From Methanoculleus receptaculi (GTDB taxonomy: Archaea; Halobacteriota; Methanomicrobia; Methanomicrobiales; Methanoculleaceae): DNA of 64,000 nucleotides. The notes under the pieces were generated by a model that saw nothing but the letters and a program-made list of their open reading frames with translations, did not search any database and was not told the origin of the DNA. Within the stretch, counting starts at the first letter, position 1, and each line of letters opens with the position of its first letter. Location of the stretch: contig NZ_CP137642.1 of NCBI RefSeq assembly GCF_033472595.1, positions 186,001 to 250,000 of the forward strand, read 5' to 3'. A program made the position numbers and the translations under genes. Below, one piece after another: positions 1-6,079 of the stretch.

Positions 1-2070
1 CTCTGCAGGCAGGCTGTGGAACCATCCGGCGTAGATCTCTGCAGGGAGCAAAACAACGTCTCCGTCCTTTACCATACGGTCGAGCTCCCCGGGGGCCCAG
101 GTGCCGACGTTTCTTCCCTGGAGGAGCATCAGGTCGAGGAGGACGTCTTCGTCCGGGACCTCGCCGGCTACCGAGTAGCCCTCCGCCTTCATGGCGTTGA
201 GGAGGCTCGTGAGGCTCGGCACGATATCAAGGTAACTTGCGCCGAGGTTGTTCTTCCCTCCCCCGTGGTTGTAGTAGATGACGGCGATGCGCTTGTCGGG
301 GTTTGCAGTATGCCGGAGCTTCCCGAGTGCCAGAACCCTGTCGGCGAGCCAAGCAACCTGCTCGTCGACGGGTGTGATCGGGCGAAACCCGATCGCTTCT
401 GTCTCGGGGTCGATTCCCCTCCCGGCGGTCCAGATGAACTCTGTCTGGCCGTCAAGTTCGGGCATCGCGATCGAGTAACCGATCTTTGAAGCGGTGATGC
501 CGTCGGTGCCTTCCGCCCACTCTTCAGGGGTCTTTGAGTAATCAACAAGTGCGTTGATGATCGGGATGTTGTAGGCTGCCAGTTCCGCAATTCCCCGTTC
601 GGCGTTCTCACCGGACCCGTAAAACCTGAAGCACCTGATATTGACGATGGCGTCGATGACCGGCGTCCCGTTCCTGACGAAGAACCGGTCGATCACGTGA
701 GGGTTTTTATGATCGAGGAAGACCGGGAGGATGTTCGCTCCCCTGGCTTCAAATGCTCTCATGATAGCGTCATCACCGCGAAGATCGCCGGAACGGTAGT
801 GACTGTCATAGAAGATGATGCCGATGGTCGGTTTTGCCGGATCATACATGGAGTACCACGCCAGATAGTCATCCAGGTTCTCAAACGGTTCCCCGCTGTC
901 GGGATGGTAGATGCATTCCTGGGGGATGGTGATCGGATCCTTCACCGGGACGTCGGCCCCGCATAACCTGGCACTAATGTAGTCGATCAGCCTGAGCGCA
1001 TTCTCGGGACAGTTGTTGTCCCAGTAGGTCTCCACTGCCGGGTGGGCGGTCATATCGACGGTTCCGAGGGATTCATGCGTCCCTCCATGAAGGACCATTA
1101 TCGGAATCCCGAGGGCAGTGGCGTCCTTTACCGCCGGTTCGATGATATCTATTCCGGCCCCGAACATCTCAAGAAAGATGAGGTCATAGCCGGTGAGGTT
1201 GAGATCGGCAGGCAGGTTCTTTGAGGGATAGACCGTGACGTTTGCAGTGCTCTTCGCAGCTGCATCGATGTACATCGGGACATAACTCTCTCCACCGATG
1301 ATCATGACGATCCTGATCGCCTCTTGTGGTGATTGTGGAGGATCCACGGGTGTTGAGTTCCCGAAGCAGGTGTTGTCGATATACAGGAGCATGTTCAGGA
1401 TATTACCGTCACCCCCGTACTGCCAGTATCGGCTGATGTTCTGGTCCGCGGGCATACCGAATATAGTATCCGGGGAAAGGCCATAGAGGATGATCGTTGC
1501 GTTCTCACCGGCTGTGCCGTTGATACGCGCAGCGGTCTCATTGCCGATGGACGCGGCAAAGATAAGCGGTTCCCCGGCGAAATCGTGCAGCAGTGCCTCT
1601 TCTTCGGAGAAGAGGGAGACGTTCAACGGGACGCTCCCGGTCACATTGGTGATCGCTGCCCTCCTCTGGCTGTCGCCCGTGACGATCGCGATCCTGTTCT
1701 CCACAGCGGCCTCCCGCACTGTTTCGATCGTGTTCCCTTCACCAGCAGGAGTTCCAGAGTCCCCCAACGGGAGCGGGCCGCCGGCGGTTGCAGTCGGGAT
1801 CGGGGTCCCCGTTGCGTTCCCGGATTCGTCAGGGAGTGGCGTCTCCTCCACCTCTTCAGGGGCTGCAGGCTCCTCTGTTCCGGCCGCTTCCGGCATCGAA
1901 GGACTTTCAACCGGGTTCCGGGTATCCAGCCCGTTCGTTCCATTCTCCGAAACTTCTTCGCTCCCGGCTGGGTCCGCGGCGCCTTCACCTGCCGCAGGCG
2001 CGACCAGGAGCAGCGTGATCATAATCAGCGCACATAACCAGTACAGGTTGCTTTTTTTCGTAACTCTCAT
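1..2070 (-). CDS. Exported CobN-like cobaltochelatase-family protein (partial)
   Basis: Open reading frame of 690 codons with no stop; the C-terminal part lies outside the window. The ATG at 2070 follows a purine-rich Shine-Dalgarno (GGGAGGAAAAGAGG). Residues 1-28 form a signal peptide (positively charged start, then a hydrophobic core ending VAPAAG). Residues about 29-115 are a Pro/Glu/Ser/Thr-rich linker. From about 118 the protein resembles the N-terminal part of the CobN/BchH large chelatase subunit, including a stretch of the form KPTIGIIFYDSHYRSGD near 300. Classical CobN is cytoplasmic and inserts cobalt into hydrogenobyrinate with CobST partners. An exported copy therefore cannot simply be that enzyme. 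Upstream lie genes for an ExbD-shaped protein, an ExbB-like channel and a DUF2162 protein on the same strand. Corrinoid or metal handling outside the membrane is inference; the family call is firm. Confidence 0.85.
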   Translation of the reverse strand, partial: MRVTKKSNLYWLCALIMITLLLVAPAAGEGAADPAGSEEVSENGTNGLDTRNPVESPSMPEAAGTEEPAAPEEVEETPLPDESGNATGTPIPTATAGGPLPLGDSGTPAGEGNTIETVREAAVENRIAIVTGDSQRRAAITNVTGSVPLNVSLFSEEEALLHDFAGEPLIFAASIGNETAARINGTAGENATIILYGLSPDTIFGMPADQNISRYWQYGGDGNILNMLLYIDNTCFGNSTPVDPPQSPQEAIRIVMIIGGESYVPMYIDAAAKSTANVTVYPSKNLPADLNLTGYDLIFLEMFGAGIDIIEPAVKDATALGIPIMVLHGGTHESLGTVDMTAHPAVETYWDNNCPENALRLIDYISARLCGADVPVKDPITIPQECIYHPDSGEPFENLDDYLAWYSMYDPAKPTIGIIFYDSHYRSGDLRGDDAIMRAFEARGANILPVFLDHKNPHVIDRFFVRNGTPVIDAIVNIRCFRFYGSGENAERGIAELAAYNIPIINALVDYSKTPEEWAEGTDGITASKIGYSIAMPELDGQTEFIWTAGRGIDPETEAIGFRPITPVDEQVAWLADRVLALGKLRHTANPDKRIAVIYYNHGGGKNNLGASYLDIVPSLTSLLNAMKAEGYSVAGEVPDEDVLLDLMLLQGRNVGTWAPGELDRMVKDGDVVLLPAEIYAGWFHSLPAE

Positions 2071-2124
2071 ACGTTAGCCTCTTTTCCTCCCGGAGCCGAC
2101 TGCTGCGGCCGGGTGTTTACCAAA

Positions 2125-2165
2125 CTTATTTTTAGGTAGATCAAGTACGATTGATTATTAATATA
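2125..2165 (-). promoter_or_regulatory. Putative promoter and 5-bp inverted repeat upstream of the cobN-like gene
   Basis: The 142-nt gap between the DUF2149 gene and the cobN-like gene is AT-rich. On the minus strand it contains TATA-like stretches (ACGTATATTAATAATC near 2151-2166 and CCTAAAAATAAG near 2125-2136). Between them lies a perfect inverted repeat, ATCAA at 2140-2144 and TTGAT at 2151-2155. This suggests that the cobN-like gene has its own regulated promoter in addition to read-through from the upstream operon. No regulator can be named from the sequence. Confidence 0.4.
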
Positions 2166-2212
2166 CGTTACGCATCGATGCGGTGGTAGAGCCCGGTTTC
2201 TGGACAAAAGAG

Positions 2213-2554
2213 TTAGTTATCCTCGTCCCCATCGTCGGGAACGTAGATGATCTCGCCGTTCTCCAGGCGGTATGCCGTACCCATGCGGCTGCCCTGGCCG
2301 CCGGCAAGTTCTTCGGTCATATTCAGCACCTTGAGGGTCTTGCCTTCCTTGATAATGATCTGCATGTTCGGCTGTCCCGGGTTTTTCACCACCGTGAGGT
2401 CCGCTTCATCGTCGAGGAGTTCGGGAACGTTGTAGGCGACGACGAGCGCGACCAGGAGGGCGACGGCGAAGACCATAGCGACGTCAAAGAGGTTGGCAAC
2501 GCCGGAGAGAGGGTCTTCGTCCTCGTCGTCGAGAATGATGCGTCTTCTCCTCAT
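2213..2554 (-). CDS. DUF2149 protein with ExbD/TolR-like architecture
   Basis: 113 residues. The start is ATG at 2554, overlapping the stop of the upstream MotA/ExbB-like gene as ATGA; a longer frame upstream of this Met is a shadow of that gene. The protein has a very basic start (MRRRR), an acidic stretch (DDEDEDPL) and one transmembrane helix at about residues 22-41. A soluble C-terminal part of about 70 residues follows. The helix begins LFDVAMVFAVALL, with an Asp at its cytoplasmic end exactly where ExbD and TolR carry their essential channel Asp. DUF2149 is, to my knowledge, found mainly in methanogens and uncharacterised. Translational coupling to an ExbB-like gene supports a stator-partner role, which is inference. 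Confidence 0.8.
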   Translation of the reverse strand: MRRRRIILDDEDEDPLSGVANLFDVAMVFAVALLVALVVAYNVPELLDDEADLTVVKNPGQPNMQIIIKEGKTLKVLNMTEELAGGQGSRMGTAYRLENGEIIYVPDDGDEDN

Positions 2555-3171
2555 GCCACCATCCTCACCACGTATTCCATGTCGCTCAAGTCCTGTAGAT
2601 ACCACCGGCGCTTCGTCAGCATGACGGCATAGGCGATGCCTCCGGCAAACAGCCCGAGTACCGTCGTGCTGAACGCGATGACCAGGTTGGATGCCAGCGC
2701 CTCGACGTTCCCTGCCGAAAGGCCCATCAGTGCGGGACCGAGGGGTATCAGCGTTCCCATGAGCCCGAGCATTGGGGCCGTCCGCGTCAGGATCTTGAGC
2801 CGCTCCAGTTCGGCTGCAATGCGTATCTCGTAGTCCTGGAGGAGCTTTTCCGACTCGATCGAAAATCGATCGTCCCCGAGAAGTTTCGCAAGGTCGCCGG
2901 TAAACGATCTGAGAAGCGGGTTTGACCCCGACGCTGCAAGCGTCTCTGCGGCTTCGCCGTACGACCGGGCCTGGACGAGCGCCCGGGTCTCCCGGCAACC
3001 GTCTCTGAGCCGTTCGAGGTTCCGGGTCCTTGCCGAGTACTCGGAGATGAACTGGCCGAGAGCCGTCAGTGTCCAGACAACGAAGGCAAGGAGCACTATG
3101 ATTGCAGGATAGAACAACGCCCCGGACAGGGTGAACATGGTCTCCATGATCAGTGTCGACAGGTCCGTCAT
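2551..3171 (-). CDS. MotA/TolQ/ExbB proton-channel family protein
   Basis: 206 residues. A first membrane segment lies at about residues 17-40, a cytoplasmic helical region of about 80 residues follows, then two C-terminal membrane segments. The family signature is at residues 130-182 (TRTAPMLGLMGTLIPLGPAL, then VIAFSTTVLGLFAGGIAYAV). The small residues and Thr that line the ion path in ExbB/TolQ are present. In bacteria this family forms the pentameric stator that couples proton or sodium flow to work through ExbD, TolR or MotB. Its start overlaps the stop of the DUF2162 gene and its stop overlaps the start of the DUF2149 gene, so the three are translationally coupled. The energised target is not obvious, because archaea of this group have no outer membrane or TonB; the downstream exported CobN-like protein is the candidate. 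Confidence 0.87.
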   Translation of the reverse strand: MTDLSTLIMETMFTLSGALFYPAIIVLLAFVVWTLTALGQFISEYSARTRNLERLRDGCRETRALVQARSYGEAAETLAASGSNPLLRSFTGDLAKLLGDDRFSIESEKLLQDYEIRIAAELERLKILTRTAPMLGLMGTLIPLGPALMGLSAGNVEALASNLVIAFSTTVLGLFAGGIAYAVMLTKRRWYLQDLSDMEYVVRMVA

Positions 3172-3884
3172 CTGCCACCACGCTCCGCGGTGTGCCGGAT
3201 TCTGTCGGTGAACACCCCGAACGCGATCAGGGCTGTCATCAGGACGAGCGCACGGAGCATGCCGACCGGATCCGTTGCGATGCCGAATGCCGGTGCGTCC
3301 TGCGCCTGCAGGTAGGCCGGGATGAGGAGGAGGCAGAGCAGGTAGAAGAGGCCGAGGAACAGCATGACGTTACCCAGGGTGGAGGGATTGTCCATACCGG
3401 CCTTTTTCGTTATCCAGCTCGTGACAATTCCCCCTCCCGTAATCCCTGCAAAGAATAAGCCCCCGATGACGGCGCCCGCCGCAACGCCGCTCATTCCGGT
3501 GGTGCTGGTGAAGACGAGGCACGAAAGGAATGTTGCTGCAAGGCATGCCGGGCAGGGAAGCGACACCAGGAGGAATGTTCGGCGCGATAGATCTCTGCGA
3601 TCCGCCAGCCAGGCTTTTTTCGTTCTGATGCCGAAATAGACGAGCGCGAGCCCGATGATGAGATGCATGACAACGCCGAGCCCGATGACCTGCTCTGTTG
3701 CGCTCACCGGGATGCTGCCAGCGATTGCTCCTATAATGAGCGCGGTGAGCGCATACATGGATGCAAGACAGAGCGTCTCGCATCTTCGCAGTCCCGAAAG
3801 CCCGCACCCGACCCCGCTCTTCAACGCCAGAAGGGTGGTGCCGCCGAAGACGCCGGCGGTGAGGAAGTTGACAACGTCACTCAT
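3168..3884 (-). CDS. DUF2162 predicted transporter
   Basis: 238 residues and strongly hydrophobic, with about six to seven membrane segments. Two halves are visible: residues about 5-85, and about 105-235 after a basic cytoplasmic loop containing KKAWLADRRDLSRR. A Cys pair motif CPACLA sits at the start of the second half (about residue 110). Several Gly/Ala-rich helices resemble the CcdA/LysE-type export superfamily. I recognise it as DUF2162, a family of predicted methanogen transporters without a known substrate. It is the first gene of a tightly overlapping set of three (ATGA overlap with the ExbB-like gene) followed by the cobN-like gene, which suggests a metal or metallocofactor substrate (inference). 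A TATA-like box precedes it. Confidence 0.75.
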   Translation of the reverse strand: MSDVVNFLTAGVFGGTTLLALKSGVGCGLSGLRRCETLCLASMYALTALIIGAIAGSIPVSATEQVIGLGVVMHLIIGLALVYFGIRTKKAWLADRRDLSRRTFLLVSLPCPACLAATFLSCLVFTSTTGMSGVAAGAVIGGLFFAGITGGGIVTSWITKKAGMDNPSTLGNVMLFLGLFYLLCLLLIPAYLQAQDAPAFGIATDPVGMLRALVLMTALIAFGVFTDRIRHTAERGGR

Positions 3885-3910
3885 AATAATTTAAGTTTAA
3901 ACAAGTGTAC

Positions 3911-3920
3911 CTTATAAAAT
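3911..3920 (-). promoter_or_regulatory. TATA-like box for the DUF2162-ExbB-DUF2149 operon
   Basis: On the minus strand the sequence ATTTTATAAG lies about 30 nt upstream of the DUF2162 start codon, in an AT-rich stretch. An archaeal TATA box about 25 nt upstream of transcription would put the first base a few nucleotides before the ATG, giving a near-leaderless message. Read by eye only. Confidence 0.4.

Positions 3921-4054: not shown

Positions 4055-6079
<2,025 letters not shown>

Follow-up and report, generated by a model that had tools for sequence, protein, structure and literature searches.

A BtuS/HmuS-type CobN, ExbB and DUF2149 gene set with a DUF2162 membrane protein in Methanoculleus receptaculi: a candidate ion-driven extracellular chelatase system

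Introduction

What does an ExbB-type ion channel protein drive in an archaeon, and why does its gene stand beside that of a CobN-like chelatase bearing what looks like an export signal? These questions are raised by four genes at the start of the window, our term for the 64,000-nucleotide stretch of the Methanoculleus receptaculi genome analyzed here (NCBI RefSeq assembly GCF_033472595.1, contig NZ_CP137642.1, positions 186,001 to 250,000 of the forward strand). An earlier note on this DNA, made from the letters alone, had proposed that an ion-driven stator could energize an external chelatase-like protein for capture or release of cobalt, nickel or corrinoid, with the DUF2162 protein as the membrane path.

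Bacterial relatives have been described. The name BtuS was given earlier to a CobN-like group that forms a third type next to CobN and ChlH (PMC6460266, in the passage on these types). HmuS of Bacteroides thetaiotaomicron extracts iron from heme and has a predicted anchor at each end; a passage of the same 2025 study calls archaeal use of the homologues unclear, complete hmu operons being lacking (PMC12583661). Homologues in Methanomicrobia are already known, one table listing Methanomicrobia among the largest HmuS and HmuV clusters (PMC10100974). New here are the operon, its context and its motifs.

Results

The four genes lie in succession on the minus strand. They encode a DUF2162 predicted transporter (238 amino acids; 3168..3884; Pfam PF09930, 7e-47), a MotA/TolQ/ExbB-family ion channel protein (ExbB, 206 amino acids; 2551..3171; PF01618, 8e-11), a DUF2149 protein of the HmuV family with a single transmembrane helix (113 amino acids; 2213..2554; PF09919, 3e-35) and a CobN/BtuS-like class I chelatase (residues 1-690 of 1581 at 1..2070; PF02514). 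The DUF2162/ExbB and ExbB/DUF2149 junctions are 4-base ATGA overlaps, and the CobN gene starts at 2070, 142 bases past the DUF2149 stop, and runs out of the window; its full length is G000:C1:183325-188070, of which G000:C1:183325-186000 lies outside. The CobN-Mg_chel match (PF02514) has an E value of 0 and covers residues 348-1436, and this protein is the sole CobN-family match in the 1.98-Mb host genome. The ATGA-coupled trio followed by a same-strand CobN, as described in the earlier note, was borne out by these coordinates and Pfam matches. On its predicted parts, the set is an archaeal version of the bacterial BtuS/HmuS-type set, which combines a CobN-like chelatase with ExbB/HmuU and DUF2149/HmuV. 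The name BtuS reportedly comes from a 2003 paper.

Next, the class to which this CobN belongs was examined. Export and anchor calls were made from hydropathy, not from a dedicated signal-peptide predictor. The window CobN opens with a signal-peptide-like N terminus (1987..2070, minus strand; a hydrophobic stretch with a Kyte-Doolittle value of 2.42 over 17 residues), followed by a low-complexity Pro/Glu/Thr/Ser linker (approximately residues 29-115; 1726..1986, minus strand; translation read by eye), and it ends, outside the window, in a C-terminal membrane helix. The signal peptide, long disordered linker and external location put forward in the earlier note all agree with these features, and the protein looks to be exported and held outside the membrane by both ends. 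The same pair of end features was found in 49 of 52 archaeal CobNs linked to the other genes, 13 of 13 HmuS and 6 of 7 other bacterial linked CobNs, and in none of 26 unlinked archaeal CobN rows (which include one protein twice and a tandem copy near a module).

Two trees gave a concordant picture. In an unrooted 57-row tree, built by quick search from a hand-picked subset plus seven references (biosynthetic CobN and ChlH), linked CobNs and HmuS formed one group (97 in the Shimodaira-Hasegawa-like approximate likelihood ratio test, SH-aLRT) and biosynthetic and unlinked CobNs another (SH-aLRT 99); the window CobN grouped with HmuS, apart from biosynthetic CobN and ChlH. A 96-row FastTree tree without the biosynthetic and ChlH references, which omits L046 (masked stretch) and L082, likewise separated linked from unlinked rows and placed the tandem copy among the linked ones. 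A CCHHTC motif just past the chelatase body was present in 50 of the 52 archaeal linked CobNs, one of the remaining two being masked, and in none of the 26 unlinked ones. Its counterparts are CCDHTC in Trichlorobacter lovleyi, a C-x4-C core in 11 of 13 HmuS and CGHTTC in Runella; four bacterial linked CobNs (L082, L136, L137 and L139) were without a motif of this type. The motif, apparently specific to the linked CobN type, is new here.

The gene-neighborhood survey that the earlier note had called for showed conservation far beyond this genome. Loci were taken from sampled genomes of the phylum, from 80 named loci (the best 80 of 531) and from plasmid records; they were found by DUF2149 similarity, and close relatives are over-represented. 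Enough flanking sequence was available at 66 of 86 archaeal and 23 of 24 bacterial DUF2149 places. ExbB adjoined DUF2149 at every one of these (66/66 and 23/23), a same-strand CobN was found at 46 archaeal and 22 bacterial places, and DUF2162 was present at 59 archaeal places and recognized at 1 bacterial place. Because all four genes occur together at 46 of the 66 archaeal places, the clustering is more than chance. Within a set of 20 loci, 14 had all four genes on one strand, and L043 had CobN on the other strand. The gene set is genuine and widespread in archaea, where it represents a variant of a type known from bacteria.

To assess association independently of adjacency, a profile of the CCHHTC-CobN segment was run over 392 sampled genomes of the phylum, giving 113 matches, of which 98 were strong (E below 1e-16) and the other 15 weak (E above 1e-5). 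DUF2149, present in 114 of the 392 genomes and 5 of 14 of the genus, occurred in 93 of the 98 genomes with a strong match, compared with 21 of the remaining 294 (Fisher p 2e-62, relatedness ignored). This CobN type is therefore rarely found without DUF2149, adjacent or not. Strong expansion of the CobN type was also seen: genomes G383, G345, G135 and G157 have 6-10 CCHHTC-type matches each and just 2-4 DUF2149 copies.

The residues of the ExbB/DUF2149 pair were compared among relatives. ExbB Thr140 is present in 94 of 94 relatives, and Thr169 and Thr170 in 91 and 92; we take these three residues to be the equivalents of the Escherichia coli ExbB channel threonines. In DUF2149, the aspartate at the start of the membrane helix (Asp24; codon at 2483..2485, minus strand), which holds an ExbD-aspartate-like position, is Asp in 109 of 110 unselected rows and Glu in one. 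The likeness of HmuV to ExbD has been reported (PMC10100974, in part of that study). We infer that ExbB and an ExbD-like DUF2149 form an ion-driven motor. The archaeon had been presumed to do without TonB, and neither TonB_C nor ExbD (PF02472) was matched in its genome; in the sampled phylum, ExbD was found in 4 of 392 genomes, with one over the cut-off. Since DUF2149 accompanies this CobN type so regularly in a sampled phylum with almost no ExbD, and since no TonB was found in this genome, CobN is most likely what the motor acts on, as judged from co-occurrence. A cytoplasmic ATPase as partner is disfavored, because it should not reach an exported CobN; Mg_chelatase (PF01078) gave five weak matches in the window genome. 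The DUF2149 model was poor (predicted local distance difference test score, pLDDT, 63.5), and a fold search with it gave no match. ExbB-DUF2149 pairs were also seen beside large, apparently secreted proteins (L049:8277-19001 and L050:2025-12518), which suggests other motor clients; L050 has two such pairs, near FeoA/FeoB-like genes (by eye).

The active site was then compared with that of HmuS. The window CobN has HFGRHG, retaining the catalytic histidine that is His538 of HmuS in HFG(T/A)HG, as do 44 of the 52 archaeal linked CobNs, the window's included. At the position of HmuS His1209, His is found in porphyrin-acting proteins (2/2 ChlH and 13/13 HmuS), and Asp in 41 of 52 archaeal linked CobNs and 4 of 5 biosynthetic CobNs; the HmuS motif LSLDHxxEFMGG is not in the window CobN, which has VDNDDCFQYVG. 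The HmuS heme ligands are absent from it as well. As a gauge of the methionine-rich insertion of HmuS, Met was counted in the richest 120 residues, giving 7 in the window CobN and 6-30 in the 13 HmuS. These data bear on heme-iron salvage as in HmuS, an explanation that shares with HmuS a tree branch and partners, and that would fit the change of Methanosarcina barkeri BtuS proteins with iron source (PMC10846266, in the results concerned) and the FeoA/FeoB-like genes at L050. We consider it improbable on the evidence of the ligands (His254 in 0/52 archaeal linked CobNs, Met79 in 1/52 and His1209 in 1/51 readable rows); in addition, no hmuY or receptor gene was recognized among the scanned flanking genes of the window genome. 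The sole archaeal linked row with His at the His1209 site is the 2,133-residue CobN of Methanococcoides seepicolus (L081:430-6828; FDHVYEFFGG), a candidate archaeal heme-type enzyme.

The catalytic histidine is lost in 7 of the 52 archaeal linked CobNs. In the 96-row tree, the histidine-less CobNs are a supported clade of seven rows with Phe at the catalytic position and CCHHTC retained; this clade, as defined by alignment and tree, is new here. Its existence suggests that what these systems have in common may be capture and transfer, not chelation. In whole-corrinoid uptake without chelation, CobN would bind the tetrapyrrole and the motor would drive hand-over of the intact macrocycle to DUF2162. 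The retention of CCHHTC and module in the histidine-less clade speaks for such a scheme, as does the T. lovleyi operon with its TonB-dependent receptor and cobalamin riboswitches. It is nonetheless rather unlikely, given the catalytic histidine kept in most archaeal linked CobNs, including the window's, and a DUF2162 protein that is small and whose conserved cysteines look like metal ligands.

Comparison with congeners pointed to a natural exchange within the gene. The same chromosomal site is occupied in five other Methanoculleus loci (L032, L052, L053, L178 and L179; L180 is the same DNA as L052), with shared flanking DNA checked for L032, L052 and L053. Against the window CobN, the five congener proteins are 58-87% identical over residues 1-200 and 80-89% over 1441-1581, and the body between them (201-1440) is 43-44% identical. 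The reverse pattern was found in Methanoregulaceae L067 and G163 (L034), with ends at 26-42% and bodies at 72% and 66%, respectively. At the upstream limit of the swapped body (approximately residues 185-200; 1471..1515, minus strand; located from DNA-match ends and protein identity by region), the DNA matches to three congeners stop abruptly, and the downstream boundary, near residue 1440 and outside the window, was seen at the protein level alone. HxGxHG is missing from all five congeners, which retain CCHHTC, and the three included in the 96-row tree sit in the histidine-less clade. The window species, then, carries what is by its motifs a catalytic-type body between native ends. This apparent natural swap of the chelatase core is new here, and its simplest reading is that recombination replaced the putative substrate-handling part and kept the motor-coupled part. 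The window DUF2149 is 96% identical to that of Methanoculleus chikugoensis. In the congener locus L032 (genome G153), a 429-amino-acid IS110-type transposase-like frame (L032:7552-9211; by eye) lies between DUF2149 and CobN.

To gain insight into the substrate, genes near the modules were surveyed. Cobalamin synthesis or cobalt transport genes lie near at least nine archaeal modules (L046, L054, L056, L089, L091, L106, L114, L115 and L117). CbiQ, CbiM, tetrapyrrole methylase (two proteins) and CbiA/GATase_3 were confirmed by Pfam in five representatives, and the other names were given by eye; the CbiT-like protein matched just generic methyltransferases. Locus L106 reads DUF2162-ExbB-DUF2149-CobN-cbiT-cbiL-cbiF, with intergenic gaps close to zero, and the argument from cobalamin neighbors rests on such same-strand, near-overlapping order, not on a background rate. 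Because of these nine modules, the bacterial riboswitches and the CobN-type active site, we favor, with modest confidence, cobalt or a corrinoid over heme as the putative substrate.

The cobalt and corrinoid part of the substrate range given in the earlier note therefore gained support; nickel appeared in just two bacterial side lines. The Runella trio lies inside a HypABFCDE cluster with a permease that is weakly NicO-like, below the Pfam cut-off, and that of Azospirillum has an ABC transporter, a receptor and nikR in its vicinity. These two settings would suit nickel acquisition for F430 and hydrogenases, a reading that merits as little credence as heme salvage, since the metal genes recognized beside archaeal modules are those of cobalamin and cobalt. 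An ArsR-type regulator gene was noted near the module in nine loci (L040, L041, L061, L090, L094, L098, L100, L105 and L113; two scanned by Pfam), and in L061, L090 and L105 it stands immediately upstream in divergent orientation, a candidate metal sensor.

Finally, DUF2162 was characterized. Its GxGCG and PCPxC cysteine motifs are conserved, and K22, G26, C27, P110, C111, P112 and C114 are invariant in 24 archaeal sequences; the bacterial DUF2162 of T. lovleyi is without C27. An AlphaFold model (pLDDT 82) gave no Foldseek match at E<=0.001. DUF2162 occupies a place similar to that of HmuT, but homology of the two found no support: two HmuT scanned had no Pfam match, and the DUF2162 profile did not hit HmuT. 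The paired cysteines in both DUF2162 and CobN could also mean an electron relay, in which DUF2162 CPxC and CobN CCHHTC carry electrons to the outside for reduction of the bound metal, with the motor in an accessory role; the NADH requirement of HmuS in vitro (PMC12583661, in the assays concerned) would accord with it. We hold it highly improbable: the two His of CCHHTC suit metal binding, and, as weak evidence, DUF2162 had no thiol-disulfide carrier match in Pfam or among the fold matches listed.

Discussion

The explanation that we consider best, and to which we give an even chance as a whole, is an archaeal BtuS/HmuS-type system in which a motor-driven, exported chelatase handles cobalt or a corrinoid. 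As its sequence features indicate, a class I chelatase would be exported and would stay tethered at both ends to the outside of the membrane. The ExbB/DUF2149 motor would work on it in the role that the ATP-driven CobS/CobT or ChlI/ChlD have with the cytoplasmic relatives. The chelatase body would bind a metal-tetrapyrrole, for which gene context and active-site type make a cobalt corrinoid or a cobalt chelate the most likely candidate, and the motor would drive turnover, in which the metal, the ligand or both are released. From the CCHHTC site, next to the anchor, the metal may then pass to the conserved DUF2162 cysteines for import. A more specific form of this proposal is tentative, and we lean against it: an extracellular chelatase driven by an ion gradient in surroundings devoid of ATP, with ExbB/DUF2149 in place of the AAA+ ATPase of cytoplasmic class I chelatases, the ends and CCHHTC coupled to motor and DUF2162, and, by extension, HmuU/HmuV of gut Bacteroidota energizing turnover of HmuS rather than the outer membrane receptor HmuR. 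In this form, the substrate-handling body could be exchanged for another, as suggested by the natural core swap of this species.

A number of results weigh against this explanation. For the parts, a DUF2149 versus ExbD profile comparison aligned at the Asp but was not significant (E 0.11), and the DUF2162 model matched BbZIP zinc transporters with a Z score of 8.7 at most, which unrelated carriers equaled and which is too low to be meaningful for helical proteins. For the substrate, the nine cobalamin-linked loci are mostly from genomes like those of ANME-1 (anaerobic methanotrophic archaea group 1), which implies few independent origins of the linkage; no cobalamin gene was found among the scanned flanking genes of the window genome, and no cobalamin riboswitch in seven archaeal loci (L002, L032, L046, L056, L089, L106 and L117). 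No enzyme that takes cobalt out of corrins is known to us. The seven histidine-less CobNs retain the module, which means that chelation cannot be a function common to the whole group. The two M. barkeri BtuS proteins respond to iron/sulfur source in experiments in which cobalt was not the variable, and the authors say, in the passage on these genes, that an operon is lacking (PMC10846266). Recombinant HmuS alone, without ATP, turns heme into protoporphyrin IX with NADH in vitro, and without partners it halts after 1-2 turnovers (PMC12583661, in the in vitro section). The motor is thus not needed for the chemical step; the halt leaves room for it in turnover, which is consistent with our proposal and not proof of it.

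Two further results belong with these: a strong CCHHTC-CobN match is missing from 21 of the 114 DUF2149 genomes, and at 20 of the 66 archaeal places the motor genes stand without a same-strand CobN next to them. The motor therefore serves other clients or distant ones. Both results would also be expected if motor and CobN were neighbors without joint function. We regard that as the least probable of the alternatives, in view of the genome-level co-occurrence (93/98), which holds regardless of adjacency, and the bacterial adjacency (22/23).

Several known systems come close to the archaeal set. The module is not a wholly new machine, because it has a bacterial precedent in HmuSTUV/BtuS (PMC12583661 and PMC6460266, in the parts that treat these proteins). 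DUF2149 is annotated in bacterial hmu operons, and the CobN-ExbB-DUF2149 trio is found within hmuYRSTUV of Bacteroides finegoldii and Prevotella nigrescens; a Porphyromonas gingivalis operon is likewise annotated as hmuYRSTUV (PMC10434189, in the part naming the operon). Shared with these are a CobN-like protein with a signal and a C-terminal helix, an ExbB-family HmuU, a DUF2149 HmuV and a single tree branch. The archaeal set differs in having DUF2162, with HmuY and HmuR not recognized and TonB not found in this genome, and its CobN differs from HmuS in the missing heme ligands, the CobN-type active site and the CCHHTC motif.

The closest bacterial arrangement is on T. lovleyi pGLOV01, with the operon receptor-DUF2162-ExbB-DUF2149-CobN-exbB-exbD-tonB. 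The order of the four genes is the same, and its CobN has the CCDHTC noted above; it differs in its own outer membrane receptor, a separate TonB motor and two cobalamin riboswitches directly upstream. With a separate exbB-exbD-tonB present, the DUF2149 pair probably does not act as the TonB motor in that species. A passage on the T. lovleyi genome describes it as without CobS/CobT (PMC3403914). Biosynthetic CobN (CobNST) shares PF02514 and the DxDD-type active site with the window CobN, but the references have no C-terminal membrane helix (by cut-off), lie on the other side of the tree, and are adjoined by AAA and/or VWA genes in 3 of 5 cases. With ExbB/ExbD/TonB, TolQR and MotAB, the archaeal set shares a MotA/TolQ/ExbB protein and a one-helix partner with a near-invariant Asp, whereas DUF2149 replaces ExbD, TonB was not found, and the proposed client is a chelatase.

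HmuV has been suggested to be diagnostic of heme transport (PMC10100974, in the passage on HmuV); its occurrence as DUF2149 in cobalamin and nickel settings speaks against this. The archaea considered here offer a simple test system: their compact operon includes the motor pair and lacks outer membrane components, which itself argues that the motor serves the chelatase. If the proposal is true, many methanogens and methane-oxidizing archaea would have an unrecognized cobalt or corrinoid route.

Two neighboring genes may be recorded. About 6 kb from the end of CobN lies a FecCD permease frame (L002:555-1556; G000:C1:176555-177556), possibly broken, that covers only positions 3-73 of the 311-position Pfam profile. 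Directly upstream of the four genes, on the same strand (window 4055-6079), is a gene for a 674-amino-acid membrane protein that by eye resembles an ion-pumping pyrophosphatase.

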